A stretch of 64,000 nucleotides of DNA from Methylobacter sp. (GTDB lineage Bacteria; Pseudomonadota; Gammaproteobacteria; Methylococcales; Methylomonadaceae), in the NCBI GenBank assembly GCA_004299305.1, contig SCPZ01000062.1:1-64000 (forward strand), given 5' to 3'. The translations under genes were made by a program, and so were the position numbers. This document shows, one piece after another, positions 4,208-63,724 of the stretch; position 1 is the stretch's first letter; the number at the start of each line of letters is the position of its first letter. The notes beneath the pieces were generated by a model. The model was not told the DNA's origin. It worked only from the letters and a program-made list of their open reading frames with translations, and made no database searches.

Positions 4208-4346
4208 CGAGAGGCGTGGGAGAGAGCATAGGTAAAGCCCCTGTCAATACTGTGGGCAAGGCGCGTAAACAAAGAGCGGAAGCTTTAAAATTCACGACTC
4301 TATGCTGTATACTGACCGGCTATTTTTTATAATTAGGATTGAAACA

Positions 4347-4889: not shown

Positions 4890-4895
4890 GCCTAA

Positions 4896-5885: not shown

Positions 5886-6042
5886 GGTGAGCGGGCTTTT
5901 TTTCCACCAAAAACACTTGCTTCCTGTCTTTGTGGTTGACATTAAGTTAAAGTTTAGGTAGGTATTCATGCCCCTTAGCTCCATACGGATGGTTTAGCCA
6001 TTAAACGGTTCGTTTAAAATTTTATGGCTAAATCGTCCTATT

Positions 6043-6123
6043 GAAAAATATATTGTTACGCCAAGACCTTCCAGGTTTTAAAAACCTGGAAGGTCTAAAT
6101 ACGGTCGGGGTCTGAATAGTTAC
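6043..6123 (-). repeat. Dispersed palindromic repeat, AGACCTTCCAGG family
   Basis: The core AGACCTTCCAGGTTTT / AAAACCTGGAAGGTCT forms a long hairpin. The whole 81 bp, including flanks ending GTAACTATTC on the other strand, recurs in opposite orientation at 63765-63845 with about one mismatch. Shorter copies lie at 47910-47969 and 55183-55215. Confidence 0.9.
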
Positions 6124-6138
6124 AAGTTTAGAAATATG

Positions 6139-6260
6139 CGGGTTCCCAAGCTTGGGAACCCGGATGACGAAGCTCTCGGCAACCGCTCCTGCGTCGCCTA
6201 AAGCGCCTACTGTTGGTGCTTTACCTTCTGCATCATTCCCAAGCTTGGAGCTTGGGAACT
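6139..6260. repeat. Pair of TTCCCAAGCTTGGGAA palindromes
   Basis: A perfect 24-bp palindrome centred on AAGCTT lies at 6139-6162. A related hairpin, ATTCCCAAGCTTGG followed by AGCTTGGGAACT, lies at 6235-6260. Together they look like the two ends of a small TTCCC...GGGAA element, the same general type as those at 31079-31177 and inside cydD. Confidence 0.65.
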
Positions 6261-6345
6261 AGCGCTCGACTAGCGCTCACAAAAATCCTTAACTTAATCG
6301 TACTGCTGCCGGAGAGCGTAGGAACGATAAATAAAGGCTAAATAG

Positions 6346-9137: not shown

Positions 9138-9145
9138 GTGCAGCT

Positions 9146-9784
9146 ATGATGAGAATTAAGGTCAGGCGATTCTGCCTGCGGCTCTTCGGGCCGATGAAAA
9201 TCTGTTCCAAACAGATGTGTGCCGTTATATTGACTACTTTTCTCATCTCAAACGAGGTGTCGGCCGACATTTATAAATTTATCGATACTGACGGCCGTAT
9301 CTACTATACCGACAAGCCTAAAAACGGCCTATACAAGCGCATTATACGAACAAGGCCAGTCACTTATTCCGCAGCCGTGCCCTATATCGGCGTCAACAAA
9401 AAGAAATTCGCCGATCTTATTGCCGAAGCGGCCAATCGTCACCAGGTTGATGTTAATCTGCTGCACGCCGTTATTCAGGCTGAATCCGCTTACGATGCCG
9501 GCGCAATATCCTCAGCCGGAGCCGTAGGTTTAATGCAGTTAATGCCCGATACCGCCAGACGCTATGGCGTTGTTAACCGGACTGATCCGGTCCAGAATAT
9601 CGACGGCGGCACCCATTATTTGAAAGACTTGCTCAGGATGTTCGATTCGAATCTGGATCTGGCCGTTGCAGCGTATAACGCCGGTGAAAATGCGGTGATC
9701 CGCTACAACAATTCCATCCCGCCTTACCCCGAAACTCAAAATTACGTCAAAATAGTGAAGGCTTTGTATAACAGGCGGTCTTGA
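9146..9784 (+). CDS. Lytic transglycosylase with DUF4124 N-terminus
   Basis: Predicted periplasmic enzyme cleaving peptidoglycan glycan strands. A signal-type segment (about residues 17-41, ending EVSA) precedes a short DUF4124 module, ADIYKFIDTDGRIYYTDKP. The SLT domain (about 90-205) shows IQAESAYD with the catalytic glutamate, SSAGAVGLMQLMP and AVAAYNAGENAV, all hallmarks of the Slt70/MltC fold. The product is 212 residues. ATG 9146 and 9149 are adjacent; ATG 9194 (MKICSKQ) would give a cleaner signal peptide and is the main alternative start. It follows purT by 8 bp and may be in the same transcript, though without obvious functional connection. Confidence 0.88.
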   Translation: MMRIKVRRFCLRLFGPMKICSKQMCAVILTTFLISNEVSADIYKFIDTDGRIYYTDKPKNGLYKRIIRTRPVTYSAAVPYIGVNKKKFADLIAEAANRHQVDVNLLHAVIQAESAYDAGAISSAGAVGLMQLMPDTARRYGVVNRTDPVQNIDGGTHYLKDLLRMFDSNLDLAVAAYNAGENAVIRYNNSIPPYPETQNYVKIVKALYNRRS

Positions 9785-9814
9785 GCTGTTGGGCGGCTCG
9801 CCAAGGAGCCAAGC

Positions 9815-10258
9815 ATGATGAACGCAAACCCCCTCGACTTAAGTCGTTTCACAAATGCGCAAGAAAGCATTTATGACAGCGTCCTCACAGAATTAACAAA
9901 CGGTCGAAAGCGCTCTCACTGGATGTGGTACATATTCCCGCAAATTGATGGCTTGGGACACAGTTCAACCTCAAAACACTATGCCATTAAGAGCATGGAA
10001 GAAGCTCGGCAATACCTAAATCATCCCGTTCTTGGAAAAAGACTACTGGAATGCGCGGAAGCGGTTTTTGCTATTGAAGGACGATCTATTTCAGAAATAT
10101 TTGGTTGTCCTGATGATATGAAGCTTAAATCTTCCATGACACTATTTGCTTGTGTAGCAGAACCATATTCTGTGTTTGTCCGTATTCTTGAAAAGTATTT
10201 TAATGGGGTACACGATTCTTTGACGCTACGCCTATTAGGCGAGGAAAAAAACAAGTAA
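9815..10258 (+). CDS. DUF1810 family protein
   Basis: A 147-residue cytoplasmic protein of the DUF1810 family, recognised from DLSRFTNAQESIYDSVL at the start, SHWMWYIFPQIDGLGHSST, YLNHPVLGKRLLECAE and the FGCPDDMKLKSSMTLF stretch. The family has no firm biochemical function. ATG 9815 has a good upstream AAGGAG at 9804-9809. Base composition is more AT-rich than purT and the transglycosylase before it, as is the following EAL gene, hinting at a different history for 9.8-12.5 kb. Confidence 0.85.
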   Translation: MMNANPLDLSRFTNAQESIYDSVLTELTNGRKRSHWMWYIFPQIDGLGHSSTSKHYAIKSMEEARQYLNHPVLGKRLLECAEAVFAIEGRSISEIFGCPDDMKLKSSMTLFACVAEPYSVFVRILEKYFNGVHDSLTLRLLGEEKNK

Positions 10259-10507
10259 AAAATCAACCTAACGGGCACTTCTGCTGATGGGCTATTGTCC
10301 GTCTGAGTTTCATTTTACATGTAAAATTTCTTTGCCGATGGGCGTTGCATTCAACTAAGCACGATCTTCATCATTAATAACTAGGCTTTCTTTTGGCGTT
10401 TCTTTTAACAAGTATTCCAATGTTAGACTCGACACGGGCATGGAGTTAGTTTCGTTTTGATTGTTATCCGTTGCGCTAGTCATTTTATGGATGCTCGGTA
10501 TTGTTTT

Positions 10508-10550
10508 TTGTCACAGTTAGGTAACCAAAATGACACATTCCGATTAAAAC
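10508..10550 (+). promoter_or_regulatory. Upstream copy of the duplicated promoter block
   Basis: Consists of 11-bp units TTGTCACAGTT, AGGTAACCAAA and ATGACACATTC, then GATTAAAAC. Each unit aligns with the one in the functional copy at 10631. An ATG follows (10577) at the position equivalent to the EAL start but opens only a short frame, so this looks like a relic of a tandem duplication. Confidence 0.5.
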
Positions 10551-10630
10551 GCTTAGCTAAGCAGTCAGGGTGCTATATGCCAATCTCAGCAAGGGAAGGA
10601 GATGGGGGCTGGGTTATTAGTATTTTTTGT

Positions 10631-10673
10631 TTGTCATAGCAATGTAACAAAAATGACATATTCTGGTTAAAAT
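10631..10673 (+). promoter_or_regulatory. Candidate promoter with 11-bp repeats, before the EAL-GGDEF gene
   Basis: TTGTCATAGCA (10631-10641) and ATGTAACAAAA (10642-10652) resemble PhoB half-sites (consensus CTGTCAT plus 4 bp) in 11-bp register; a third unit, ATGACATATTC, is weaker. A -10-like TAAAAT lies at 10668-10673, 26 bp before the ATG. Resemblance to a Pho box is suggestive only; the duplication is directly visible. Confidence 0.4.
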
Positions 10674-10699
10674 ACCCAGATAACTAGTCAGAATATTAC

Positions 10700-12496
10700 A
10701 TGTCAATTTTACACAACGAACTCAGCAAAATTCTTAATAGTAAGCAATTAACGCCCCATTTTCAGCCTATTGTTTCTTTATCTCAAAAGAAAATCATGGG
10801 TTACGAAGCGTTAATTCGAGGTCCTTCCGATAGTCCGCTACATAGTCCCTTTAATTTGTTCGACACGGCTGAGCGTTTTGATTTAAGCACAAAACTCGAA
10901 TATATTTGCCGGGAAGTCACTATAAAACATTACGCCGACTTAAATATCAAAGAGAAGCTGTTTATTAACGTAAGTCCTTCCGTATTGTTGCACCCAGACG
11001 TTAAAAAAGGGGAAACGCTTAAACTCCTGCAACAATTTGGTGTTGATCCTCGCTCTGTCGTTATTGAATTAACAGAACACCAACCGACTGATGACTTTCA
11101 ATTAATGCGCGAAGCGATCATCCACTATAGGAAAATGGGTTTTGAAATAGCAATTGATGATCTAGGGGCAGGTTACTCGGGATTAAGGCTTTGGTCGGAA
11201 TTACAGCCTGAATATGTAAAAATAGATATGCATTTTATTCAAGGTATTCATAATGATCCGATCAAACTTAATTTTGTTCGATCCATTCAAAATATTGCAA
11301 GTTCCCTTAATTGCAACGTTATCGCTGAAGGGATTGAAACAGAGGATGAATTTAAAGTTGTAGAGCAACTTGGCATTACGCACGCGCAGGGCTACTATTT
11401 CGCCCGGCCGACGGCTATCCCTTTAGAGAAAGTTGATAAATCATTATTCATTACCAGTACCCAGCCCAATCAGTTTAATGCTACAAAAGCAGATCATATC
11501 GCTAAATTTATAGCGCCTGTTTCAGCGGAAACCGCGATCAGCGATGTCATGAATTTGTTTCATCACGACAGTGACTTAACCATTCTACCTTTGGTTGATA
11601 ACAATGTGGCTTCAGGTATTATTTTTCGCGACCATTTTCTATTTAAACTATTTTCCAGTCGCTACGGCATAGAGTTGTATGGAAAAAAACCGATAAAAAC
11701 GTTTATAGAAAAAACGCCGTTAAGTTTTGATCAAAATACCCCCATTGAACTGGTCAGTAAGCAACTGACCTCGACCATGCGCAATGACCAGGCTTTTATT
11801 ATTACCAATGACGGGGAATATTCAGGTATAGGAACGATACTTAAATTGCTTGAAGAAATCACCCGCCAGCAAATCCATAATGCCAAACACGCTAATCCTC
11901 TTACCCTGTTGCCGGGTAGCGTTCCCATCAATGAACAGATAGATCAATTATTGCTAACCAAGACACCTTTCAGTTTCGGCTACTTTGATCTTGATCACTT
12001 CAAGCCTTTTAACGATGTATACGGTTACAGTGCGGGCGATGCGATTATTAAGGCAGTTGCCAATTCACTGTCGCAACATATTCCCGCAGAAAGCGGACTG
12101 GTCGGCCACATCGGCGGTGACGATTTTATAGTTATTTTTTTGGGTGATGACTGGTTAAGGTGTTGTGAAAATATTTTGCATGATTTCGAAAAAATCGTTC
12201 CGAATTATTACAAAGATAAAGATATAAAAACAGGCGGCATTCATACTGAAAACAGGGCTGGAGAAAAATGTTTTTTTCCTTTGATAAGCCTGTCGGTAGG
12301 CTTGGTAGGCCCTGATTCGACAAGTCAGTGTCAATCGCATGTCGATATAGCCGATTTAGCATCCGAAGCCAAAAAACAGGCTAAAAAAATTGAAGGGAAT
12401 AGTTTCTTTATTAATCCGCGAATAGTAACGAAAAGCCCGGAAAACCATCAAGTCTTTGCGTATAGACCCGCCGTAAAACTACATGCAGTTCATTAG
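10700..12496 (+). CDS. EAL-CBS-GGDEF cyclic-di-GMP protein
   Basis: A 598-residue cytoplasmic signalling protein with reversed order. The EAL phosphodiesterase domain (about 10-245) has E36 in YEALIRG, FINVSPSVL, DDLGAGYSGL, KIDMHFIQG and EGIET, so it looks catalytically complete. A CBS-pair region (about 265-395) follows. The GGDEF domain (about 410-560) carries GGDDF at 472-476 rather than GGDEF/GGEEF, with YFDLDHFKPFND in front. There is no transmembrane segment, so it probably senses a soluble ligand through CBS. Net hydrolysis of c-di-GMP is the likely activity; whether the cyclase half is active cannot be read from sequence. A downstream chemoreceptor starts 84 bp later on the same strand. 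Confidence 0.88.
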   Translation: MSILHNELSKILNSKQLTPHFQPIVSLSQKKIMGYEALIRGPSDSPLHSPFNLFDTAERFDLSTKLEYICREVTIKHYADLNIKEKLFINVSPSVLLHPDVKKGETLKLLQQFGVDPRSVVIELTEHQPTDDFQLMREAIIHYRKMGFEIAIDDLGAGYSGLRLWSELQPEYVKIDMHFIQGIHNDPIKLNFVRSIQNIASSLNCNVIAEGIETEDEFKVVEQLGITHAQGYYFARPTAIPLEKVDKSLFITSTQPNQFNATKADHIAKFIAPVSAETAISDVMNLFHHDSDLTILPLVDNNVASGIIFRDHFLFKLFSSRYGIELYGKKPIKTFIEKTPLSFDQNTPIELVSKQLTSTMRNDQAFIITNDGEYSGIGTILKLLEEITRQQIHNAKHANPLTLLPGSVPINEQIDQLLLTKTPFSFGYFDLDHFKPFNDVYGYSAGDAIIKAVANSLSQHIPAESGLVGHIGGDDFIVIFLGDDWLRCCENILHDFEKIVPNYYKDKDIKTGGIHTENRAGEKCFFPLISLSVGLVGPDSTSQCQSHVDIADLASEAKKQAKKIEGNSFFINPRIVTKSPENHQVFAYRPAVKLHAVH

Positions 12497-12579
12497 CCCT
12501 GAAAACAGCTCCCCATTTCTTCTGATTCTTATGCGGAAGGAGTGGAAAATAGGTAATAACATCATAAAAGGTTTTTAAA

Positions 12580-14961
12580 ATGTTTGGTCATATAAGCTTC
12601 AAAGTCCGCATCCTGCTCGGTTTTCTTGCCATCATCAGTTTGATGATAGGCATTGTCTCAGTGGGTTTATTTAATTTTTCGCAGACCCAGCGTGACGTGG
12701 CGAAAGTGGATGATACTTTTCTGCCCAATGCCTTGTTGGCAGAGCGAATGGCGATTTACACCGTACAGGTGCAACAGTTTTTCACTCAAGCTTCAATCAG
12801 TCAGGATCCTGATAGTTTTCAGGATGCTGAACGAGCTGCCGAAGATTTTAAACTGGGCATTGCCCAATTTCGCGAACGTTTGGCGGGAGAAAACTCAGCG
12901 GAAATAACATCAGAATTAGCGGCAATTAAGAACGGCCATGTTGCTACGCTGAATAATGTCAATTCGCCGGTAGTAAAAATGACTGAGTTAGCGGCGCTTG
13001 AGACCGGCTTTGATTGGTATTACAGTGAAGGCAAGCGCATGACTACGGTTTATGCCACGGAGGGAGTCGATGCCGGTAATTTGGTCATGAAAGATTTCAA
13101 TAAATTGGCGAAAAACTTACGCACGCAACTGAATCGAATTAAAAACCAAGGCGTGAACGACGCAAAAAATAACGCTCATGCCATTACTGAATCAACCCGG
13201 CATGCGTCTATGATCATGCTGGCCATCTCTTTAACCGCTATCGGTTTGGGCCTGGGCATTGCGATTTATTTAACACGCTATCTGGACAAGAGCTTAGGCA
13301 TAGACCCTTATTTCGCAAAAGGAATTGCCATGGAAATTGCCGAGGGTAATTTAACCCGGGATATTCAGGTTGATCAAAAAGACAGCAGCAGCTTGTTATA
13401 TGGTATGAAGCACATGCAACAACAGCTGCTGGCGCGCATAACCGCAGAGCGCAAAGCGGCAGACGAAACTCTGCGCGTTAAGATTGCCTTGGACAGTGTC
13501 AGCACTGGCGTATTAATTGCCGATAATGATCGCAACATCATTTATGCCAACCCAGAAGTGATCAAGATACTCGGCAAGGCCGAAGCTGAAATCAGCAGGC
13601 AATTATCGAAATTCTCTATTGACGGTCTGGTCGGCACTAATATGGATGATTTCCACGCAACAGCCTCGCATCAGGCAAAAGTGCTCGCGACCTTAACCGG
13701 CGCCTATGAAGCTGATGTAATGGTAGGCGGTCGTTCAATGGTGGTGATCGTCAATCCGGTTGTCAACGAGCAAGGTCAGCGATTGGGTACGGTGGCCGAA
13801 TGGCATGATCGTACCGACGAGGTAATGGCGGAGAATGAAGTAGCCGCGATTGTCAGCGCCGCAGCTATGGGTGACTTTAGTATGCGTTTTGACCTGGACG
13901 GCAAGGAAGGTTTTTTACGTCGCCTTGGCGCGGACATTAACCAGCTTATGCAAACCAGCGAAACTAGCCTCAATGAAGTCGTGCGCGTGTTTAACGCGTT
14001 GTCTCGCGGCGACTTGACCGAAACTATCAGCAATGATTATTCAGGTATTTTTGGTCAACTTAAAGACGACTCCAATACCACGGTAGAAAAACTTCAAGAT
14101 ATTGTTAACCAAATTAAGGCGGCTGCCGACGGCATTGACACCGGGACTAAAGAAATTGCGTCGGGTAACAATGATCTGTCGCATCGCACCGAACAGCAAG
14201 CCTCCAGTCTGGAACAAACCGCCGCCAGCATGGAGCAGCTGACCTCCGCTGTACAGCATAATGCTAAAAACGCCCAACAGGCCAACCGGCTTGCCGTTGA
14301 TGCGTCGGACATAGCGGGCAAAGGCGTCGAAGTGGTCGATCAAGTGGTAACGACCATGACTGACATCAACGAATCTTCACGCAAAATCGGCGATATTATC
14401 TCGGTGATCGACGACATCGCTTTCCAAACCAACATTCTTGCCCTTAATGCCGCAGTAGAAGCCGCCCGTGCCGGAGAGCAAGGCCGGGGTTTTGCCGTTG
14501 TAGCGGTAGAAGTTCGCAATCTTGCGCAACGCGCGGCGACGGCAGCCGGAGAAATTAAACACCTGATTAATGATTCGGTAGAGAAAGTCTCGGGAGGTAG
14601 TAAACTGGTTGCCCAGGCGGGATTGACCATGAAAGAAATCGTCGCCTCGATTCGCGGCGTTACCGATATGATGGCTGAAATTACCGCCGCCTCCGCCGAA
14701 CAAAGTTCCGGCATCGAACAAGTCAATCAAGCTATTGCGCAAATGGACGATGTAACCCAACAAAATGCCGCCTTGGTAGAGCAATCCGCCGCAGCGGCAA
14801 AATCGCTGGAGGAACAGGCGCACAACCTAGTGGTCACCGTGGGCAGTTTTAAGCTGGATAACAACCCGGACGATTTTTACCGCCTTGTCTCCCCAGTAAA
14901 AATAAGCACAAGCAAGCATGAATTACTGAGCGTTGATACCGAGGGTTGGGAAGAATTTTAA
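12580..14961 (+). CDS. Methyl-accepting chemotaxis protein with PAS domain and CheR-tether tail
   Basis: A 793-residue chemoreceptor. TM1 is about residues 10-31 and TM2 about 208-231, enclosing a ~175-residue helical periplasmic sensor. A HAMP region follows, then a PAS-like domain (about 295-410, [19 protein letters not shown]), a second HAMP-like stretch, and the MCP signalling domain with the conserved hairpin tip [20 protein letters not shown] at about 610-630. The C-terminus is GWEEF, matching the x-W-x-x-F pentapeptide that tethers CheR/CheB in some receptors. A purine-rich AAAAGG precedes ATG 12580. No cheA, cheW or cheR lies in the window, so this is an orphan receptor gene. Confidence 0.93.
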
Positions 14962-15118
14962 GGCGATTGCAGGAAATCGCCTAAGTGCAAGATCGCGAAT
15001 TTAAGCCGTTATTTGTGAAATTAGCTAATCCGTAAGTTTTTTGTTGTTGCCGGGAATAGCGCGAGCGCTATAATCCAGCAAACTTGGTAAAAAACACGAT
15101 GAATTCTTAGGAGCTTTT

Positions 15119-15643
15119 ATGAACCGTACGGTTTTATTTATGGTAGCGCTGGCGACCGTGGGTTGTTTTGCACTCACCGGTTGCGAGCAAGAGCAAAAAA
15201 CGGCAAAAGCGAATCCAGTCGCGGTTAAAAAATACACGCAAACGACAACTTTAGAGGGCGTGGTCAGTAATAACGAAGGCCTGGTTAAGTCCGGTAGGGT
15301 GGAAGCGACCGATGAAAGCGGTCGTTTAATTGCCCATGCGGTGGTGGATAATGGCTATTACAGCGTGGAAATTCCAGCCAATACGGTTTTGCCGATAGTG
15401 TTGACGTTTTCTTCCGAGTTGAACTCTGAGAAATTAGTCGCCGCTGTCATTCATAACACGATTACGAAATATGAGATTAATCCGGCAACGACTGCAATTG
15501 CCAAAGCGGCAAAAGCCATGGGCGGTTATACGCATGACCATATGATCCGCGCTGCGGCAGATACCGTACACACTCCCGATGCCAACAAGACCACAAGCGG
15601 TTGGCGCGGTGATCCGACTACGCAATACGGCGGTTGGCATTAA
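15119..15643 (+). CDS. Small lipoprotein of unknown function
   Basis: A 174-residue predicted lipoprotein: the N-terminus runs to the lipobox LTGC with C22. After it comes a short linker and a region GVVSNNEGLVKSGRVEATDE...YYSVEIPA that resembles carboxypeptidase-regulatory-like beta-sandwich domains, in which a small modifier is 'inherited' by a surface protein. The C-terminus, ending TTQYGGWH, is His/Gly-rich and unlike anything I recognise. TAGGAG at 15106-15111 is a good ribosome-binding site. It is monocistronic by appearance, with a hairpin and T-run just after the stop. Function is unknown. Confidence 0.7.
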   Translation: MNRTVLFMVALATVGCFALTGCEQEQKTAKANPVAVKKYTQTTTLEGVVSNNEGLVKSGRVEATDESGRLIAHAVVDNGYYSVEIPANTVLPIVLTFSSELNSEKLVAAVIHNTITKYEINPATTAIAKAAKAMGGYTHDHMIRAAADTVHTPDANKTTSGWRGDPTTQYGGWH

Positions 15644-15648
15644 GTCAT

Positions 15649-15670
15649 GTACGCCATGTGTACCTTTTTT
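15649..15670 (+). terminator. Candidate intrinsic terminator after the small lipoprotein gene
   Basis: GTACGCCATGTGTAC hairpin followed by CC and six T residues. The stem is short (4 bp plus possible G-T pairs), so strength is doubtful. A related sequence follows the coiled-coil gene at 61074. Confidence 0.45.
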
Positions 15671-15815
15671 CAATCGTTACGAAAGTCAAAATAAAGGCGC
15701 GCACAACAACGCCGAAACAGCTTGGTGCATGTCTAGCGTATGAGTCAATCCACGGGTTCATCGTTCCTACCCATTCTATTTTTTACTGTCACCATTAGTT
15801 TTACTGAGGAGCGCT

Positions 15816-16289
15816 ATGCGAACATTTAGACAAATTCCGGCTTTTTTTCTTTTCATCGCAATTTTTTCGGCTTGCAACCCTGTTTTTGCTGAAACGGCTG
15901 AGACAAGCGATACGGATACGCATCATGCACAAAATAGCCTTGATTGGCCGGGCATTTATCACGGTTTTATGCCCTGTGATGATTGTAAGGGAGTCAAATC
16001 GACGCTCGCATTAAATCAAAACAGCAGTTATATCTTGATTACCCAATATGTTGGCAAGTCAGAAAGAGAAATTGTGGAGAAAGGGAAATTTTCTTGGGGT
16101 GATAAACGCGATACGATTGTTTTAACGCCACGCAATAGCTCAACTACACGGCAATATTTTGTCGGCGAAAATATGCTCATTCAGCTTGATGACAATGGCA
16201 ATCGTATCTCTGGCAAACTTGCAGACCGCTATATTTTGCGTAGAACTGACGTAACAAAAGCGTCGTCATCGTCACATTTGGGGCATTGA
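15816..16289 (+). CDS. NlpE-like exported protein
   Basis: A 157-residue exported protein with the N-terminal NlpE fold: DWPGIYHGFMPCDDCKGVK contains the CxxC pair (C54, C57), followed by ILITQYVG and KGKFSWGDKRDTIVL, as in copper-resistance lipoprotein NlpE. In E. coli NlpE is an outer-membrane lipoprotein that signals surface and copper stress through Cpx. Here FSAC at 17-20 could be a weak lipobox, but the stretch NPVFA before ETAET would also serve as an ordinary signal-peptidase site, so lipidation is uncertain. It has only the N-terminal domain. GAGGAGCG precedes ATG 15816. Confidence 0.75.
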   Translation: MRTFRQIPAFFLFIAIFSACNPVFAETAETSDTDTHHAQNSLDWPGIYHGFMPCDDCKGVKSTLALNQNSSYILITQYVGKSEREIVEKGKFSWGDKRDTIVLTPRNSSTTRQYFVGENMLIQLDDNGNRISGKLADRYILRRTDVTKASSSSHLGH

Positions 16290-16526
16290 GCGGCTTATTT
16301 GGCTGTTTAGCGTAGCCTGCGTCAGTAGAGTAGGGCGGTTTTGCGCCACGACTTGTATGGGTGCAGGAGGTAGATTGTTAAATTAGACGAAAAAACTGAG
16401 GTTTTGCAGGCTTCCCGCTGTTGGCATTTGTGTACGATTATTTAGCCCCGGCAATTTATTTAGAATAAATTGCTGAATTTCTATAAAATTACTTATTACC
16501 GTAACAATTCTTAAGGCCAAGTCTAC

Positions 16527-17492
16527 ATGGACCTAAAATTTCTCGATTTCGAACAACCCATTGCTGAATTAGAAGCGAAAATTGAAGAACTCCGCAATGT
16601 GCAGTTCGACAATAATATTAATATTTCCGATGCGCTTAAACAGTTGGAAGAACGAAGCCAAGCGCTGACCGAGTCGATTTTTACCGATCTTTCCGATTGG
16701 CAAATTTCCCAGTTATCCCGGCATCCGGGCCGTCCTTATACGCTGGATTATGTGGAACATATTTTTACCGATTTCCATGAGCTGCACGGCGACCGGGCTT
16801 ATGCCGATGATCCGGCGATTATTTGCGGACTGGCGCGCCTCGACGGGCAGCCGGTTATGGTAATCGGTCATCAAAAGGGACGCGATACCAAGGAAAAAAT
16901 TTATCGCAATTTCGGAATGCCGCGCCCGGAAGGTTACCGCAAGGCTTTGCGCATGATGAAAATGGCCGAGCGTTTTAAAATGCCGGTTATCTGCCTGATT
17001 GACACACCGGGGGCTTATCCGGGCATCGGTGCGGAAGAACGCGGCCAGAGCGAAGCCATCGCCAGAAACCTGTTTGAAATGGCCAAGCTGAGAACGCCGA
17101 TTATCTGCACTATCATCGGCGAAGGCGGTTCCGGCGGCGCGTTGGCTATCGGCGTTGGCGACCGTTTAATCATGCTTGAATACAGCACTTATTCGGTTAT
17201 TTCCCCGGAAGGCTGTGCATCTATATTGTGGAAGAGTGCGGATAAATCGCAATTGGCGGCCGAGGCGATGGGCATTACGTCGGATCGTATTCGTGAGCAG
17301 GGTTTTCTGGATGAAGTCGTTCGGGAACCTTTAGGCGGCGGGCATAGAAATTTTAAAGTGATTGCTCTGAACTTAAAGGAAGCACTGCTTCGTCATATGA
17401 ATGAATTGAAACTGCAACCTATTGAGAAGGTGCTGGAAAAACGTTATCAGCGGATTATGGATTTTGGTGTTTTTGAGGAATCCGGGAAATAG
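16527..17492 (+). CDS. accA: Acetyl-CoA carboxylase carboxyltransferase subunit alpha
   Basis: With AccD forms the carboxyltransferase that moves carboxyl from carboxybiotin to acetyl-CoA, giving malonyl-CoA for fatty acid synthesis. At 321 residues it is full length (E. coli 319). Seen: the N-terminal helical [67 protein letters not shown], and the oxyanion-hole [15 protein letters not shown]. The tilS start lies 8 bp after the stop; accA-tilS linkage is common in gammaproteobacteria. Confidence 0.97.
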
Positions 17493-18884: not shown

Positions 18885-18936
18885 TGAAAACTAAATAACT
18901 TGAACAGATAACATCCCTTGAAGGGATGTTATCTGT
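18885..18936 (+). repeat. Dispersed palindrome, CAGATAACATCCCTT family, copy 1
   Basis: Contains a 31-bp palindrome (18905-18935): CAGATAACATCCCTT, a single G, then its exact reverse complement. With its left flank TGAAAACTAAATAACTTGAA it is 52 bp and is repeated exactly at 55279-55330. It lies just after tilS and could also form a transcript-ending hairpin, though no T-run follows. Confidence 0.9.
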
Positions 18937-55278: not shown

Positions 55279-55330
55279 TGAAAACTAAATAACTTGAACA
55301 GATAACATCCCTTGAAGGGATGTTATCTGT
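55279..55330 (+). repeat. Dispersed palindrome, CAGATAACATCCCTT family, copy 2
   Basis: Identical over 52 bp to 18885-18936. Followed by CCGGCTTA, which also follows copy 3 at 57437. Confidence 0.92.
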
Positions 55331-55369: not shown

Positions 55370-55467
55370 TTGTCATGATTTTGTCACAATATTGTAATAA
55401 ATCTTTGAAATATATATGTATGTCGTCATGGATTTGTCATAATTTTGTAATGAATCTTTGTGATAAT
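55370..55467 (+). promoter_or_regulatory. Two PhoB-box-like clusters and a -10
   Basis: Cluster 1 has contiguous 11-bp units TTGTCATGATT, TTGTCACAATA and TTGTAATAAAT (55370-55402), cluster 2 has TCGTCATGGAT, TTGTCATAATT and TTGTAATGAAT (55423-55455). Each is followed by CTTTG. They match the PhoB half-site CTGTCAT plus 4 bp. A -10-like GATAAT (55462-55467) lies 6 bp after cluster 2, as expected when bound PhoB replaces the -35, and 28 bp before the ATG of the ExbB-fusion gene. Confidence 0.7.
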
Positions 55468-55495
55468 CCTCGCACTAATATATGTGAGGAAAACA

Positions 55496-57304
55496 ATGAA
55501 ACGGTTTGGTCTTTTATTAATTCTTTTAGCCCTGATACCTTCGGTGGCATCGGCATGGTGGAGTGATGACTGGGGATATAAGAAAAAAATAACCCTTGAT
55601 GCGAAAAAACTTCAGCAAGACGGCGTCAGCATTCCTGAAGATGCGTTTGCGTTAATTCGCCTGCATACAGGTAATTTTACCTATTTTCTGGATCTTGCCG
55701 AGAAAGGCAAAGATATTCGGGTTCTGGCGGATGATGAAAAAACGCCGTTGAAGTTTTACATTGAAAAGCTCGATCCCGTTAATGAAATGGCTTTTATCTG
55801 GGTTAAATTACCCAAGGATATTGCTAAATCCGCTGAGCCCGGTATTTGGTTATATTACGGAAATGCTTCGGCTGTCGATGGGCAGGACGCGGCAGGTTCT
55901 TATGATGTCAGTCAGGTGCTTAGCTATCAATTCGACTCCAGCAGCGTTAAGGATTTAACGGCCAACGCCAATAACCCTTCTGAAATTACCGCAAGCGTAG
56001 AAGATGGATTGATTGCCGGTGCGGCGGCTTTTCAAGGCAGCCAAATTATTCGCATTCCTTCATCTCCCTCTTTGCAAATGTCGCCGACAACGGGCTGGAC
56101 CGTAACAACATGGTTAAAATGCGACCAGGCCCACCAACAAAATAGTGTGTTGTTTCAACGAGCGGGAGCGGACAGTTCTGTAACGCTGGCGATAAGAGAA
56201 CAAACGCCTTATCTCGAAATTACTAATGCAGCGGGCGTTAAACAGGAATTTTCAGCCCAGTTTACGGTAGCGGCGGACGCTTGGCATCATCTTGCGCTGG
56301 TTGCCGGCGCCGATAATTTTGTTATCTACATTGACGGTACCATCGCCGGCAGCTTTCCGGTTTCATTGGCAGAGTTAACCGGCGATATGACTATCGGCGC
56401 CGATGCCACAGGAGCCAGGGGATTTTCCGGCTCGGTAGATCAATTCTCAGTGTTCAAAACAGCTCTCGATGTTAATGCAATAAAATTCGATGTGCGGATG
56501 CAGGGCGCCGGATCGGCATTGTTAACTTATGGTGAAGACACCACGCCGGATGCAGAAGGCGGCGAATCTTACATTATGGCTACGCTGGACAGCGTAACTA
56601 TAGATGGCTGGATTATTATCGGCATACTGGGCGTCATGTTTGTGATCAGTTGGATGGTGATGATCGTCAAGACGATAGTCATTAACCGTATCCATGGGGA
56701 AAACAAAAAATTCGAACGGGTATTCAGTACGCTTGGCGCGCAGGAAATTTCAAAATTAAACAGTGAAGAAACCGAAGATGATGAGGATTTTGAAGAATCC
56801 CCGCTGTTGCTGTCATTAACTTCCAAGCACGGCGCTTTTATGGGCTCCTCCATTTACCGCATCTATCATGTCGGTGTTGAAGAGATGAATAAGCGTTTAA
56901 GAAAAGGCGTAGGCTTGAATGAACAGCAAACTTTATCGGCAAGCGCGATGGCAGCCGTTAGAGCGTCAATGGATGCGGTTTTGGTCAGGGAGTTGCAAAA
57001 ACTGAATTCGCAAATGGTGTTGCTGACTATTGCCATCAGTGGCGGGCCTTTCCTGGGCTTATTGGGCACCGTGGTCGGGGTTATGATCACCTTCGCGGCG
57101 ATTGCAGTTAGCGGTGAGGTCAATGTTAATGCGATTGCTCCCGGTATTGCGGCTGCGTTGACGGCGACTATCGCCGGTCTTGCGGTAGCGATTCCAGCCT
57201 TGTTCGGATACAACTATTTAGGCAGCCGCATCAAAGTCATTTCCGCAGATATGCATGTGTTCGTCGATGAATTTGTAGCGAAATTGGCAGAACAGCATAC
57301 CTGA
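55496..57304 (+). CDS. DUF2341/LamG-ExbB (MotA/TolQ/ExbB) fusion
   Basis: A 602-residue fusion. Residues 1-20 are a signal peptide ending ASA. A periplasmic DUF2341-like segment (~22-120: WWSDDWGYKKKITLDAKKL, WLYYGNASAVDGQDAAGS) and a LamG lectin-like domain (~140-330) follow. Then comes an ExbB/TolQ domain: TM at ~370-392 (IIIGILGVMFVISWMVMIV), a cytoplasmic loop, and two TMs in SGGPFLGLLGTVVGVMITFA and APGIAAALTATIAGLAVAIP, the conserved ExbB core. ExbB energises TonB with the proton gradient. I chose ATG 55496, 5 bp after GAGGA, not TTG/ATG further up (55460). ExbD, TonB and a porin follow. Confidence 0.88.
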   Translation: MKRFGLLLILLALIPSVASAWWSDDWGYKKKITLDAKKLQQDGVSIPEDAFALIRLHTGNFTYFLDLAEKGKDIRVLADDEKTPLKFYIEKLDPVNEMAFIWVKLPKDIAKSAEPGIWLYYGNASAVDGQDAAGSYDVSQVLSYQFDSSSVKDLTANANNPSEITASVEDGLIAGAAAFQGSQIIRIPSSPSLQMSPTTGWTVTTWLKCDQAHQQNSVLFQRAGADSSVTLAIREQTPYLEITNAAGVKQEFSAQFTVAADAWHHLALVAGADNFVIYIDGTIAGSFPVSLAELTGDMTIGADATGARGFSGSVDQFSVFKTALDVNAIKFDVRMQGAGSALLTYGEDTTPDAEGGESYIMATLDSVTIDGWIIIGILGVMFVISWMVMIVKTIVINRIHGENKKFERVFSTLGAQEISKLNSEETEDDEDFEESPLLLSLTSKHGAFMGSSIYRIYHVGVEEMNKRLRKGVGLNEQQTLSASAMAAVRASMDAVLVRELQKLNSQMVLLTIAISGGPFLGLLGTVVGVMITFAAIAVSGEVNVNAIAPGIAAALTATIAGLAVAIPALFGYNYLGSRIKVISADMHVFVDEFVAKLAEQHT

Positions 57305-57525
57305 GTCCGGCAGCCGCCGGGTATGGATGGGGGCGTAGGGCGCGCCATGTGCGCCCTACAGCATATGTGCCTATGTCGGAAACAACATGGAAAACTGTTC
57401 CAGAAAGCGGGCTTCCAATTTAAAGCGGGACGATTACAGATAACATCCCTTGAAGGGATGTTATCTGTCCCGGCTTAAGCGCAAACCGTCCTCAATAAAG
57501 TTATATAAAAAGAGTCTTTTAAATC
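57305..57525. repeat. Gap with two palindromes between the ExbB and ExbD genes
   Basis: A hairpin GTAGGGCGC / GCGCCCTAC (57335-57359, loop GCCATGT) and the third CAGATAACATCCCTT palindrome (57437-57467). They interrupt what is otherwise a co-oriented gene set, and may process or partly end the transcript. Confidence 0.8.
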
Positions 57526-57930
57526 ATGAAAGTACAAGAAGATAATGCGGCATACGACGAAATCAACGTCACGCCGATGCTGGATTTAGCCTATGTGTTG
57601 CTGGTTGTATTTATCCTAATGACCACGGCCTCGGTGCAGGGCATAACTGTTAACCTGCCTAAAGCCAGCGATGCGCCAAGCCTTGCCAAGCCGCAAACCA
57701 AAGCCATTACGATAACGGCTGACGGCACTATTTTCCTGGATACCTATCCGGTGACTATGGAACAGCTGGAATCCACCTTACAGCAATACAAAGCCGTAAA
57801 TCCGGCATTGCCCGTTGTTATTAAAGGCGATGCGGCGGTTCAGTATGTCAATATCGTAAATGTGCTGGCATTGCTGGGTAAACTCGATATTACTCAGATT
57901 GGCTTGGTTACGCAAAACCTAGTCAAATAA
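57526..57930 (+). CDS. exbD: ExbD-type biopolymer transport protein
   Basis: A 134-residue TolR/ExbD protein. INVTPMLDLAYVLLVVFILM carries the essential membrane aspartate (D20), followed by a periplasmic domain with AITITADGTIFLD and PVVIKGDAAVQYVNIVNVL. It pairs with the ExbB domain upstream to form the proton channel. Confidence 0.92.
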   Translation: MKVQEDNAAYDEINVTPMLDLAYVLLVVFILMTTASVQGITVNLPKASDAPSLAKPQTKAITITADGTIFLDTYPVTMEQLESTLQQYKAVNPALPVVIKGDAAVQYVNIVNVLALLGKLDITQIGLVTQNLVK

Positions 57931-57942
57931 GAGTCTCCTGTA

Positions 57943-58605
57943 ATGACTACGAAAAAAAAACATTTTCGCGCTTACCTGCCGATGATTATTGGCGCAATCC
58001 TATTGCTGGTGGCGATTGGCGTTATTATCCATATGATCGGCACTATGGAAGAAAAACCGGCCAAGAAAGAAAGGAAAATTCAGGCAATTTCCTTAACCAA
58101 GCCGCCTCCGCCTCCGCCACCCCCGCCAAAGGTTGAAAAACCGCCTGAGCCTGAAGTTGAAAAGATCCAGGAAAAAGTGGAACAGGAACCAGAAGAAATA
58201 CCTGATGTTGCAGACGAGCCGCCACCGGGTGATTTGGGCTTGGATGCAGAAGGTTCGGCCGGTTCGGATGGTTTTGGCTTGGCTGCGCGTAAAGGCGGTA
58301 AAGGCTTGCTGGGCGGAGGCGGTGGCGGAGATCCTTATGCCTGGTATGGCGGGATCATCAAAAACGATATTTTAGACATCCTTTCCGAACAAGAAGAGCT
58401 GCGCCGTAAAGGCTATACCGCTGTGGTTAAAGTGTGGATTGAGCTTGATGGCTCGGTCAAACGATTTGAACTGGCAAGAGGAAGTAATGACGCTGAAATT
58501 GACGAATTGCTGAATCGATTGCTCAGTAAATACAGAAAGGTTAATGAGCCGCTCCCGCCTGGGATGGAACAACCGATCAAGTTAAAAATTACATCAAGAA
58601 TATAA
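57943..58605 (+). CDS. TonB-type energy transducer
   Basis: A 220-residue protein with one N-terminal membrane helix (~12-32), a Pro-rich segment of nine consecutive prolines near residue 55, Glu/Pro-rich spacer (KPPEPEVEKIQEKVEQEPEE), Gly-rich hinge, and a TonB/TolA C-terminal domain (VVKVWIELDGSVKRFELARG, LLSKYRKVNEPLPPGMEQPI). It follows exbD by 12 bp. Confidence 0.9.
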   Translation: MTTKKKHFRAYLPMIIGAILLLVAIGVIIHMIGTMEEKPAKKERKIQAISLTKPPPPPPPPPKVEKPPEPEVEKIQEKVEQEPEEIPDVADEPPPGDLGLDAEGSAGSDGFGLAARKGGKGLLGGGGGGDPYAWYGGIIKNDILDILSEQEELRRKGYTAVVKVWIELDGSVKRFELARGSNDAEIDELLNRLLSKYRKVNEPLPPGMEQPIKLKITSRI

Positions 58606-58625
58606 ACACATTAACAGGTAAAGAA

Positions 58626-60326
58626 ATGGATAATAAAAAGCAGCTGATAGCCTTGGCGCTTTGCGGCTTGGTCGGCGTGGCTCAGGCAGGAGAAAAAGAA
58701 GAGTTGCTGAAGTTGCGTAATACGACAACTAATCTGATTAAGGAATTGGTTAAGCAAGGAATTTTAACCGACAAAGTCGCTGACGAGATGATCAAAAAAG
58801 CCGAAGCGGACGCCGAAACCCAGGCTGCACAGCAAGTCGCCCAAAAACCGGTCGATGCGCCGGAGCAGGGCGAAATACGCGTGCCTTATGTTCCTGAGTT
58901 TGTTAAAGACGAAATTCGTCAGCAAGTGCGCACGGAATTACGTGCCGATGTGGTGCATGATGTGATGCAGGAAGCTAAAACCCAAAAATGGGGCGTACCC
59001 GATGCGTTGCCGGAATGGATCAGCCGTTTTAAATTATCGGGCGATTTGAGATTGCGTTCGCAGAATGATTTTATGGCGGCGGACAATGCAAAAACTTATT
59101 ATTTAAATTTTCAAAATATTAATAATCAAGGCGGCACCACCGCGGCCGGTATCAATGGCTTTTTAAACACGACCCATGATAGACAGCGCTTCCGTGAGCG
59201 TCTCCGTTTAGCGGTTGACGCTAAAATTACCGACGGCCTAAAAGCCGGTGTAAGGCTGGCAACCGGTAATCAACCCGATCCGGTTTCCACCAACCAGACC
59301 TTGGCGAATAACGGCAGCCAGTATCAATTTAATTTGGATCGCGCCTATCTTAAATATGACGCAGTCAATGATGAAGGCTTTAAATGGTTGACGCTGTCCG
59401 GCGGTCGTATCGCCAACCCGTTTTATACCGGCGGCGCCGAATTTACCGGCGGTAGCGAGCTGGTCTGGGATACCGATTTATCTTTTGAAGGTTTTGCCGC
59501 AACAGCCCGGCATCGTTTAGGCGGTTCGGAAGGTATTCATGACAAGAGTGATGATGCCCGGTCGGTGTTCGCGACCGTGGGCGCTTTTCCGCAGGGTAAC
59601 TCGTCAAGGGCGGAGTCCGCTTTTTCCTCAACCGATCAATGGTTGTTCGGCGGACAGCTTGGCGTGGATTGGGGCTTTCAAAATCAGGATGCTTTAAAAT
59701 CGGCAGTGGCTTATTACGATTATGAAAACATAAAAGCCAAGCCCAACCAGAATACACCGCCTACCTGTAATACCAATAGCGCGAAAAATACCTTATCGGC
59801 GCCTTCTTGGATGCCGTTCGGTAATACGCCGTCTATTATTTGTTACGATAACGCCAATGTCTTTCCTCAGTTATACGGGCTGGCGTCGGACTTTAAGATT
59901 GTCAATGCCTCATTCACTTACGATATGGCAAGGTTCGCCCCTCATCATGTCACTGTAAGCGCGGATTATGCGAAAAACGTAGGCTTTAATTCAAAATCCG
60001 TTGCGCAGTTAGCGCAAAGCCAGGTTAAAGACCAAACTAATGCCTGGCAAGTGAGGGTCGATGTCGGCTGGCCGAAAATCGACCATGCCGGACAATGGGG
60101 TGTTTTTACCGCCTACAAGCATGTTGAACGGGATGCGGTGTTGGCGGCCTATACGGATTCCGATTTCCATCTGGGCGGAACCAATGCTAAAGGTTGGGTC
60201 ATTGGCGCGAATTATGGCCTGATGAAAAACGTCTGGGCGACAGGCCGCTGGTTAAGCACCGATGTGATCACCGGGCCTAGATACGGCAACGATGTTCTGC
60301 AATTAGACTTGAATACGAGATTCTAA
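58626..60326 (+). CDS. Putative outer-membrane porin
   Basis: A 566-residue protein: signal peptide to VAQA, then an N-terminal helical coiled-coil region (~25-110, QQVRTELRADVVHDVMQEA), then a long beta-barrel from ~135 (FKLSGDLRLRSQNDF, RFRERLRLAVDAKITDGLKA) to the C-terminal phenylalanine in DLNTRF, which is the expected barrel end. It fits the 'putative porin' family (Porin_5-like, OprO/OprP neighbourhood). OprP-like porins are phosphate-selective, which would suit the Pho-like boxes, but I cannot tell selectivity from sequence. AACAGGTAAAGAA precedes the ATG. Confidence 0.82.
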   Translation: MDNKKQLIALALCGLVGVAQAGEKEELLKLRNTTTNLIKELVKQGILTDKVADEMIKKAEADAETQAAQQVAQKPVDAPEQGEIRVPYVPEFVKDEIRQQVRTELRADVVHDVMQEAKTQKWGVPDALPEWISRFKLSGDLRLRSQNDFMAADNAKTYYLNFQNINNQGGTTAAGINGFLNTTHDRQRFRERLRLAVDAKITDGLKAGVRLATGNQPDPVSTNQTLANNGSQYQFNLDRAYLKYDAVNDEGFKWLTLSGGRIANPFYTGGAEFTGGSELVWDTDLSFEGFAATARHRLGGSEGIHDKSDDARSVFATVGAFPQGNSSRAESAFSSTDQWLFGGQLGVDWGFQNQDALKSAVAYYDYENIKAKPNQNTPPTCNTNSAKNTLSAPSWMPFGNTPSIICYDNANVFPQLYGLASDFKIVNASFTYDMARFAPHHVTVSADYAKNVGFNSKSVAQLAQSQVKDQTNAWQVRVDVGWPKIDHAGQWGVFTAYKHVERDAVLAAYTDSDFHLGGTNAKGWVIGANYGLMKNVWATGRWLSTDVITGPRYGNDVLQLDLNTRF

Positions 60327-61045
60327 TGATTACCAACAACAGGCTTATGAAATCATCGGTTTTCTTTGCTTTGCTAATCTGCGCGGCATCATCGGGCGTC
60401 GCTGTTGCAGCGCCTCGGGATGCCGGCGGTAACGCTAAAATCGTCAGTAAGTTGCAGGCGATGGTTAATGAAATCACCACCGAACGGGATCGCCTTAAAA
60501 CCGAGAACGCGAAAATTGCCGCTGAACTTGAAACTCTGAAAGGCCAGGTGCAGCAGGAAAAAGACGCGGCAGCGTCATTGGAACAAAGGTTAAGCACCGA
60601 GCTTAGTTCGCAAAAAGCGAGCAGTGATGAGATTCGCGGTCGCCTGGATAATACGACGGATAAGCTGCGCGAAGTCGTCGATAAATACAACGCCTTGAAC
60701 AAAGCTAAAAATGAATTAGCCGTTGAACATGCGAACTTGCAAAATAATCAGCAACTTACCGCCTCTGAATTGAAAATGTGCGAAAGCAAAAACATTAAGA
60801 TGTATCAGGGGGCCAAGGACATTATCGACGGTTATCATCATTGCCAAAACAAGGGCGTTGTCGATGCGTTAATTGAATCGGAGCCTTTTTTGCAGATTAA
60901 AAATGTCGAATTCGAAACGATAATTCAAGAATACGAAGATAAGTTGAATAAGCAAAAATATCAGGGCAATGCTAATGCCGCAACGTTAGATCCAGCGACC
61001 GCTAAACCGACCGGTTCAGATCAAGCGGGCGACGCTAAAGAATAA
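60326..61045 (+). CDS. Exported coiled-coil protein
   Basis: A 239-residue protein with a signal peptide ending VAVAA and a long coiled coil (~45-160, e.g. LKTENAKIAAELETLKGQVQ), then a conserved-looking C-terminal part with cysteines CESKNIKMYQGAKDIIDGYH and HHCQNKG. Its start overlaps the porin stop (TAATG). Co-located with the TonB-porin set, it may be a periplasmic partner; no family recognised. Confidence 0.7.
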   Translation: MITNNRLMKSSVFFALLICAASSGVAVAAPRDAGGNAKIVSKLQAMVNEITTERDRLKTENAKIAAELETLKGQVQQEKDAAASLEQRLSTELSSQKASSDEIRGRLDNTTDKLREVVDKYNALNKAKNELAVEHANLQNNQQLTASELKMCESKNIKMYQGAKDIIDGYHHCQNKGVVDALIESEPFLQIKNVEFETIIQEYEDKLNKQKYQGNANAATLDPATAKPTGSDQAGDAKE

Positions 61046-61321: not shown

Positions 61322-63724
61322 ATGCCGTCATTCCCGTATGGCTCAAAATACTTATTACTGTTGTGCCTGGTCGGCAACCTTACCGCTTGCGATCGAAGCG
61401 ATCAGCAAACAACCCAATATATAGAAGAAGGTAAGCGTCTATATAAATCGGGCGATTATAAAAAAGCCCAACTCGCATTCGATAATGCTGCCGCCGTTGA
61501 TCCCAAAAATACCCGGAATCGTTATGACTTGGCCGAACAATTAAGCAAGTTCGGCGATATACAGGACGCCGCTAAATACTATCAGGCTGTGATCAACCAG
61601 GATGCCGGACATCTGATGGCGCGGGTCAAGTTGGGGCAAATCTACTTGCTGGCGGCGAAACTCGATGGTGCGGAAAAAATGGCTGCCGAAGCGCTCACCA
61701 TTGACGCTGAAAATACCGAGGCGCAGGTTTTGATGGGCGGCGTTTTAGCCGCGCAAAACAACAGCGATGCGGCGTTTGTCAAAGCCGAAACGGTGTTGCA
61801 GAAAAAACCTGACGATGTCGGCGCGACATTATTGTTGGCCTCGCTAACGGCTAAGACAGGCAAGCTGGACAAAGCGAGAACCTTGTTGCTGAACGCGATT
61901 GAAAAACATAGGGATAATGTGGCCATGCGTTTGATGCTGGCTAATCTGTATATTCAGGATCATGACTTGGAGAAAGCCGAAGCGATGCTCGAAGCTATCG
62001 TCAAGATAGAGCCTAAGGCGGTGGATCACCGCAAACGATGGGCGGTTTTTTTAATTAACAATAAGCAGCTTGATAAGGCGGAAACCGTTTTACGTGCGGC
62101 GGTTACAGAATTGCCGGACGATGAGCAGGCCAAATTGATGTTGGTCGAATTCCTGGCTAGCCAAAGAACGCCGGAAGTCGCTATCGCAGAATTGATTCCG
62201 ATGGCGGAGCAAAACACCGATAATTATGAGCTGCGCTTTAAATTGGCCCAATTGCAGTGGGCTCAAAAACAGACCGATAAAGCCGAAGAAACCTTAAAAG
62301 AGCTGGCCGAACTTGATAAGCAGGGCTGGGTATCGATTAAAGCGCGTAACCAACTCGCGCAATTATACAGTGCTACCGGGCGTGTTGATCAGGCCAAAGC
62401 ACTGGTTAAAGGACTGCTTGCAAGTAATCCCGGCGACCTGGCCGCGCTGGCGTTGCGCGGCGAAATGGCGTTGGCGGAGAATCGCGTGGCTGAGGCCATT
62501 GCCGATTTTCGTGCTGTGCTTGCCGAGCAGCCGCACAATATCCCGATACTCAAATTGCTGAGCGCCGCGCATCTGGTCAATAAAGACAAGGTATTGGCGC
62601 GCGAGAATATCGAAAAAGTTGTGGCGCAAGCGCCGGATGATGAAGCAGCCCGCCTGGATTTGGTCGAGCTGCTGTTGCAATCGGGAGATAAAGAACAGGC
62701 GACGCAACAGCTCAATGCATTATTCAGGCTTAAGCCGAACAGCAAAAAAGGCCTGGAAGCGTTATTCAAGATTTATTCGGCCCAGAAACAATGGGATCAG
62801 GCGCTGCAAATAGCAACGCAGTTTGAACATGCCTATGCTGAAGATGCGACAGGTTATTACTTGTCCGGCTTAGCGTATCAGGCGTCAGGTAAACTTGAGC
62901 AAAGTACGGCGCGGTTTGAGCAGGCTATGCGCAAACAAGCACAGGCCGTGGAGCCGCTGGTCCAGTTGGTGAAAAATTACCTTACTGCAAAACAACCCGA
63001 TAAGGCGCTGAATAAGTTGAATGAGGTGCTAAAAGACCAACCCAGAAATTTTGTTGCCTACAATTTGCTAGGCGATGTTTATAGCCGCAGCAATAAATAC
63101 GCCGAAGCAATAAGCGCCTATCGGCAGGCCATGGACATCAAGCCCGGCTGGACTATTCCTTACCGCAATATTGCATCGATCAATATCATGCAAAAGCATA
63201 AAAACGAGGCTGTTGAGGTTTTAACAAAAGGCATTAAGAAGGTCGACGAGCCTATGGAATTGGTGGCCGATTTAGCGGCGCTTTATCACCAGGACGGCGA
63301 GCATCAGAAAGTTATAGCGTTGTATGAAGAAAGCTATAATAAAACACCCGCTTCATTAACCGTATTGAACAATCTTGCCCGTTATTTAGCCGAGTATGGG
63401 AACGGCGTTGAAGCATTATCCCGCGCTGCAAAACTGGCCGAGCCGCTTGCCGAAACGAACAATCCTTATATGCTGGATACGCTGGCCTGGATTGCCTATA
63501 AACAGGGAAACTACGAAAAGGCCCAGCAAATCTTAGTGAAAGCGATTGAATTAAATCAGGATATTGCGCTTAGTCATTATCATTTGGGTATGGTTTATTT
63601 CAAGCAAGGCGATAAGAACGCGGCGAAGGAATCTTTACAAAAAGCGCTTAATAAAAAAGAGGATTTTAATGGCTTGGCTGAAGCGAAAGAAACGCTGAAG
63701 GGGCTGGAAAAAGGTACCCAATAA
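61322..63724 (+). CDS. Long TPR lipoprotein
   Basis: An 800-residue predicted lipoprotein: signal with lipobox LTAC followed by D. From about residue 40 to 790 it is TPR after TPR: AQLAFDNAAAVDPKNTRNRY, NTEAQVLMGGVLAAQNNSDA, AKLMLVEFLASQRTPEVAIA, YNLLGDVYSRSNKYAEAISA, SHYHLGMVYFKQGDKNAAKE. It resembles the PrsT/PEP-CTERM-associated TPR lipoproteins of exopolysaccharide loci, but no exosortase or epsA-type gene is in the window, so that link is a guess. It could also belong with the TonB-porin set, whose coiled-coil gene ends 276 bp upstream. Confidence 0.8.
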   Translation: MPSFPYGSKYLLLLCLVGNLTACDRSDQQTTQYIEEGKRLYKSGDYKKAQLAFDNAAAVDPKNTRNRYDLAEQLSKFGDIQDAAKYYQAVINQDAGHLMARVKLGQIYLLAAKLDGAEKMAAEALTIDAENTEAQVLMGGVLAAQNNSDAAFVKAETVLQKKPDDVGATLLLASLTAKTGKLDKARTLLLNAIEKHRDNVAMRLMLANLYIQDHDLEKAEAMLEAIVKIEPKAVDHRKRWAVFLINNKQLDKAETVLRAAVTELPDDEQAKLMLVEFLASQRTPEVAIAELIPMAEQNTDNYELRFKLAQLQWAQKQTDKAEETLKELAELDKQGWVSIKARNQLAQLYSATGRVDQAKALVKGLLASNPGDLAALALRGEMALAENRVAEAIADFRAVLAEQPHNIPILKLLSAAHLVNKDKVLARENIEKVVAQAPDDEAARLDLVELLLQSGDKEQATQQLNALFRLKPNSKKGLEALFKIYSAQKQWDQALQIATQFEHAYAEDATGYYLSGLAYQASGKLEQSTARFEQAMRKQAQAVEPLVQLVKNYLTAKQPDKALNKLNEVLKDQPRNFVAYNLLGDVYSRSNKYAEAISAYRQAMDIKPGWTIPYRNIASINIMQKHKNEAVEVLTKGIKKVDEPMELVADLAALYHQDGEHQKVIALYEESYNKTPASLTVLNNLARYLAEYGNGVEALSRAAKLAEPLAETNNPYMLDTLAWIAYKQGNYEKAQQILVKAIELNQDIALSHYHLGMVYFKQGDKNAAKESLQKALNKKEDFNGLAEAKETLKGLEKGTQ

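Follow-up and report, generated by a model that had tools for sequence, protein, structure and literature searches.

A putatively phosphate-controlled TonB-type operon with a plug-less porin, and its association with DUF3739 haemagglutinins, in Methylobacter sp.

The operon, its motor genes and its promoter

Five genes on the + strand occupy positions 55496-61045 of the window, by which we mean the whole 64 kb stretch of DNA that was analysed. They encode a DUF2341-LamG-ExbB fusion, ExbD, TonB, a Porin_5 protein and an exported coiled-coil protein. The source genome is that of Methylobacter sp., a methane-eating bacterium, of which 4.49 Mb were scanned for genome-wide patterns. Profile searches and coordinates bore out the sequence-only reading of five genes in a single orientation at this position. 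Its description of the gaps as short holds for all but exbB-exbD, where a palindromic repeat found across the genome has a copy within the 221 bp. The features are:

55370..55398, + strand: upstream Pho-box array of three 11-bp units, TTGTCAT-GATT-TTGTCAC-AATA-TTGTAAT, the best three-unit array in the window
55423..55451, + strand: promoter-proximal Pho-box array from the array scan, with the box TTGTCATAATTTTGTAAT at 55434-55451
55462..55467, + strand: predicted -10 element GATAAT, 10 nt 3' of the Pho box and conserved together with it
55496..57304, + strand: exbB fusion (Pfam, AF2 model, 79 homologous loci)
57526..57930, + strand: exbD (PF02472, 1.9e-26)
57943..58605, + strand: tonB, with transmembrane segment, proline-rich linker and TonB_2 C-terminal domain (PF13103, 1.8e-6)
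58626..60326, + strand: Porin_5 barrel with periplasmic helical N-terminus (PF16930, 8e-187; 16 strands)
58875..59018, + strand: porin residues 84-131, periplasmic segment IRVPYVPEFVKDEIR...W...LPEW, candidate TonB-docking site
60326..61045, + strand: exported coiled-coil protein of 239 aa, after the porin in 57 of 57 loci
61322..63724, + strand: PrsT-like TPR protein, adjoining the coiled-coil gene in only 26 of 49 loci

The fusion most likely starts at the ATG at 55496 and not at the GTG at 55460: alignments with relatives begin at residue 1 of the ATG form, and the GTG lies at the predicted promoter -10; GAGG is found just 5' of the ATG. The TPR protein scores under the cut-off of PrsT, a family of XrtA/PEP-CTERM systems, and its gene is probably a lineage-specific neighbour and not part of the core. 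Family searches gave no solid match for the coiled-coil protein.

The joining of an ExbB channel to DUF2341 and LamG was confirmed in Pfam, with DUF2341 (2.8e-14), Laminin_G_3 (7e-21) and MotA_ExbB (PF01618, 3.2e-26) all matching one protein of 602 aa. Its layout is a signal peptide, DUF2341 at residues 71-135, a LamG/ConA-like domain at 184-329, a first transmembrane helix at about 369-412 and the ExbB core at 476-586. The core residues of ExbB are invariant among 32 sequences, and the ExbD transmembrane motif MLDLAYVLLVVFILM, which includes the transmembrane aspartate, is highly conserved among 76. TonB scores above the PF13103 cut-off and has a transmembrane anchor and a linker with PPPPPPPPP. 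Judged by sequence, the proteins contain the channel domain, the ExbD aspartate and the TonB anchor, linker and C-terminal domain of a TonB-ExbB-ExbD set; the motor subunits score nearer to the TolQ/TolR models than to the ExbB/ExbD models. DUF2341 has already been noted as an addition to MotA/ExbB-type subunits (PMC12505986). Clostridial neurotoxin binding domains resemble the fold of the ExbB ectodomain, a likeness that reflects the widespread ConA-like jelly roll (10-17% identity) and is uninformative on toxicity. Vibrio TonB3/TtpC was considered as the closest relative and set aside, as the literature search gave no tie to DUF2341 or Porin_5.

Within the 64 kb window, the two top-ranking Pho-box arrays of three units start at 55370 and 55423, and the Pho score of the upstream region was reached by none of 2000 shuffles. 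An exact match to the three-unit pattern is found three times in the 4.49 Mb: here, and twice, at overlapping positions, 5' of a Porin_O_P gene encoding a homologue of the phosphate-selective porins O/P. On the window ranking, the genome-wide pattern count and the shuffles, a chance Pho box was rejected. Across relatives, the generic three-unit score 5' of exbB did not exceed background in most cases, and conservation is visible only with an aligned two-unit box and -10 element: GTcATAATnnTGTAAyGAAtnTTTGTgATAAT precedes the ATG at a nearly fixed short distance in 49 of 50 Methylococcales loci, a few of the matches being weak. The box to -10 spacing is the same as in the E. coli phoA promoter. 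The predicted PhoB-type control of the operon is well supported by these promoter sequences, in agreement with the Pho-like regulation first proposed for it.

Weaker Pho-box-like arrays lie at 10508-10659, 5' of an EAL-GGDEF gene (10700-12496), suggesting a possible tie between phosphate starvation and cyclic-di-GMP. The palindromic repeat GATAACATCCCTTGAAGGGATGTTATC is present in the window at 18907-18933, 55301-55327 and 57439-57465, that is, with one copy just 5' of the Pho promoter and another within the exbB-exbD gap, possibly forming a hairpin in the transcript. Its 25-bp core has 49 exact copies among the matches listed for the 4.49 Mb genome.

Gene order and the giant haemagglutinin

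A single scan recovered 79 loci homologous to the fusion, from Methylococcales, other Gamma- and Betaproteobacteria and Verrucomicrobia, with the order kept in nearly all. Neighbours were identified by BLAST with the window proteins. Among loci with enough flanking DNA, exbB is followed by exbD in 70 of 71, exbD by tonB in 63 of 64, tonB by the porin in 57 of 59 and the porin by the coiled-coil gene in every case (57/57), at least some of the misses being effects of ORF calling. The porin and coiled-coil genes are therefore conserved beside the fusion. In Betaproteobacteria an extra gene often stands between porin and coiled coil, in the case examined one for an ankyrin-repeat protein. Tandem exbD pairs were seen in an Aquabacterium plasmid cluster (L093, 21649-22462) and apparently in another genome (G360; L106, 3888-4532).

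The list of five genes stood, and it had overlooked what appears to be a defining partner. Of the 69 loci with flanking DNA, 56 have as the next gene 5' of the fusion one for a giant filamentous haemagglutinin (FHA) of about 3300-5100 aa, whose C-terminus matches the DUF3739 'filamentous haemagglutinin family'; the N-terminus of one relative matches the two-partner secretion (TPS) domain. The window copy has no TpsA or TpsB beside the operon and no adjacent FHA. A second full set is present in the same genome on contig C20, in the order TpsB-FHA-exbB fusion-exbD-tonB-Porin_5-coiled coil, with an FhaC/ShlB-type TpsB and an FHA of 3516 aa carrying TPS and DUF3739 domains. Contig C45 holds, within positions 275-17382 of the locus read (L088), another DUF3739 FHA gene (3419 aa) and, behind it, three genes with many RTX calcium-binding repeats; the TonB module is absent from the stretch read, and none of the five ShlB-type genes of the genome is on this contig. 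That the C45 protein is the partner of the window set is a guess.

In a sample of 398 Pseudomonadota genomes, one and the same set of 14, representing several families and 12 genera, carries the full-length fusion, full-length Porin_5 and DUF3739. By hand calculation, which ignores relatedness, the chance of two such 14-genome sets coinciding is ~1e-25. A draw of 372 Gammaproteobacteria, overlapping slightly with the first sample, gave DUF3739 over the cut-off in 23 genomes and full-length Porin_5 in 23, of which 22 are shared (22/24); the two genomes that differ are assemblies of hundreds of contigs. Partial Porin_5 matches in other genomes belong to another subfamily. On these co-occurrence counts the tie of DUF3739 FHA to the TonB module appears near-obligate.

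Phosphate genes are found near the system elsewhere. On the Methylomagnum plasmid pRS11DPr1 (L094, 6603-48675) the system is split into fusion-ExbD-TonB-hypothetical, FHA-TpsB-PstS-like (the latter a weak likeness) and a porin next to cax and phoU; PhoX and a further alkaline phosphatase lie between the pieces.

The counterpart in Pseudomonas aeruginosa has the published order pdtA, phdA, pdtB, exbB2, exbD2, tonB4, PA0696, PA0697, PA0698, PA0699, PA0701 (PMC7035377, PMC4971064), in which PA0696 is a putative porin, PA0697 has a signal peptide, and PA0698, PA0699 and PA0701 are YbjN, PpiC and LysR proteins. On a Klebsiella quasipneumoniae plasmid (L095) we found, in order, a VreA-like half receptor, sigma, anti-sigma, FHA, TpsB, fusion, ExbD, TonB, porin, hypothetical, YbjN, PpiC, hypothetical and LysR genes, and its fusion is 36.5% identical to that of the window over 97%. 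Because this plasmid shares the published gene order, it links the family of the window operon to the P. aeruginosa locus; the PAO1 proteins were matched to the window by gene order and published annotation via this synteny. The cluster is carried on two Klebsiella plasmids (L090 and L095), one typed conjugative, and so may move between strains.

The pdt locus (PUMA3) is under PhoB and sigmaVreI control and its TonB system has been called uncharacterised (PMC7035377, PMC2729926). In zebrafish embryos the virulence of PAO1 mutants in tonB4 and in PA0696 was unaltered, an assay that is not one of uptake. The sequence-only reading had called this the least described system in the window; that is fair as to function, which is unexplained for the P. 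aeruginosa counterpart, but the same order and its PhoB/sigmaVreI control were already published (PMC7035377, PMC2729926).

The porin and its periplasmic segment

Porin_5 (PF16930) is the sole family matched by the barrel protein, and its profile covers the full length. The AF2 model (28 sequences, pLDDT 76) predicts 16 barrel strands, helices ahead of the barrel and no plug, and its closest solved folds are the attachment porin OmpM1 (Z 22) and OprP and OprO (Z 19). A TonB-dependent receptor was rejected on this family match, the predicted 16 strands in place of 22 and the plug-less model, in line with the first description of the barrel as a porin without plug. Searching solved structures by sequence, with the porin as query, returned nothing useful.

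Residues 84-131 are common to 31 diverse system-linked porins, aligning as [VI]RVxY[VI]P..V..IR..V...E....V...AK.E.W..P....P.W. The segment is absent from the four closest solitary porins, which retain the N-terminal helix and barrel, and from a fifth, very weak relative. In the Gammaproteobacteria sample almost all low-scoring Porin_5 matches start past the part of the profile that holds the segment, the weak exception being the solitary porin of genome G604 with a weak N-terminal match. Motif 84-90 is modelled without confident structure in the monomer.

From its conservation the segment is a candidate TonB-docking peptide, with a loose likeness to a TonB box; it could equally be a stalk or hinge. 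A trimer stalk is possible because the nearest fold is that of an attachment porin. The original suggestion of a TonB-type complex that opens or assembles a porin fits the conserved periplasmic segment.

Possible functions and comparison with known systems

Our leading reading, which we hold tentatively, is that a phosphate-starvation TonB motor works a plug-less porin serving the two-partner-secreted DUF3739 FHA, in the import of a phosphorus ligand. Low phosphate would switch the operon on through PhoB, and the proton-driven ExbB-ExbD motor would move TonB. TonB would grip the N-terminal segment of the porin (VRVPYVPE), in place of the TonB box of a plug, and so open or remodel the porin. 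The DUF2341-LamG ectodomain would sense or bind something periplasmic, and this lectin-like domain and the coiled-coil protein may tune or scaffold the TonB-porin contact. The surface FHA would capture a phosphorus-bearing ligand, whose product would enter via the porin, in a layout like that of HxuA-HxuB-HxuC with a porin instead of the TonB-dependent receptor. The inward transport step is the least certain.

At the level of sequence, this import reading is grounded in the parts, the promoter, the partner and the porin segment. It draws on the gene order and domains, the FHA upstream of the fusion and the second complete copy on C20, on the co-occurrence in 14 of 398 genomes, and on the conserved Pho promoter shared with the Porin_O_P gene and the phosphate genes nearby elsewhere. 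It further draws on a porin segment found only in the system-linked porins aligned, the OprP/OprO-near fold and the PhoB-controlled P. aeruginosa locus. Points that weigh against it are the possible stalk role of the segment and its loose TonB-box likeness, the weak N-terminal match of the solitary G604 porin, the zebrafish result with the PAO1 mutants and the separation of the window operon from an FHA gene.

The main rival to import, and nearly as likely, is that the TonB machine, porin and coiled coil serve the FHA itself, in its late secretion, its DUF3739 anchoring in the envelope or its release. The almost one-to-one occurrence of DUF3739 with the fusion and Porin_5 would suit this, as would the very large size of the FHA and the chaperone-like periplasmic PpiC and YbjN genes within the cluster. 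Against it, type V translocation is described as working without energy source or gradient (PMC5422565), and the porin fold near OprP/OprO, together with the predicted phosphate control and phosphatases close by in some genomes, suits nutrition better. We consider it unlikely that the complex is instead an envelope tether like Tol-Pal or OmpM1, in which a stalked porin and the coiled coil bind the outer membrane to peptidoglycan or motor so as to hold the surface together while the FHA coat is made. OmpM1 as the nearest fold, the TolQ/TolR-like scores and the pairing of a helical periplasmic N-terminus with a coiled-coil partner speak for a tether, but profile searches found no SLH or OmpA-type peptidoglycan-binding domain in porin or coiled coil, and the predicted phosphate control is left unexplained. 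It is more improbable still that this is an ordinary extra TonB-ExbB-ExbD set for plug-bearing receptors elsewhere, with porin and coiled coil as hitchhiking phosphate-regulon genes. The three motor proteins are of standard families and many genomes have several TonB sets; yet the gene order is fixed over two phyla, the fusion and full-length Porin_5 always occur together in the 398 genomes, and the porin segment is system-specific.

P. aeruginosa is already known to have the gene set, with no function assigned to it. Judging by the papers searched, the widespread module, its near-obligate DUF3739 tie, the methanotroph promoter and the system-specific porin segment are new; a paper on the S-layer of Methylomicrobium album does not mention the cluster. 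The phosphate-induced P. aeruginosa locus gains a defined core of ExbB fusion, ExbD, TonB, Porin_5 and coiled coil, whose apparently near-obligate haemagglutinin partner spans methanotrophs to Klebsiella plasmids, and a 48-residue porin segment is singled out as candidate TonB-docking site. It is possible, and speculative, that force is put on the N-terminal segment of a plug-less porin under control of a lectin-like ExbB domain, in an obligate partner of one class of giant TPS proteins. If true, TonB would be acting in a new way, working a channel without plug, and two-partner secretion, usually regarded as energy-free, would have a proton-driven companion.

Like the canonical TonB-ExbB-ExbD complex, the system has the three motor subunits, each with the domains that define it; it differs in the DUF2341-LamG ectodomain of ExbB and in lacking a plug-bearing receptor in the operon. 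With OmpM1 and OprP/OprO the porin shares the 16-strand fold, whereas identity is 12-15%, an SLH domain was not found and the family is PF16930, not PF07396. Pdt/PUMA3 of P. aeruginosa has the same exbB-exbD-tonB-porin-exported protein order; its phosphate control has a predicted parallel in the conserved Pho promoter, and its TPS partner one in the FHA beside the second copy and most relatives, whereas the window operon has no adjoining vreAIR, TpsB, FHA, YbjN or PpiC genes. HxuA-HxuB-HxuC of Haemophilus influenzae combines a TPS exoprotein with TonB-powered outer-membrane uptake, as proposed here, but HxuC is a TonB-dependent transporter for haem, whereas the channel here is a Porin_5 protein without plug, putatively linked to phosphate.
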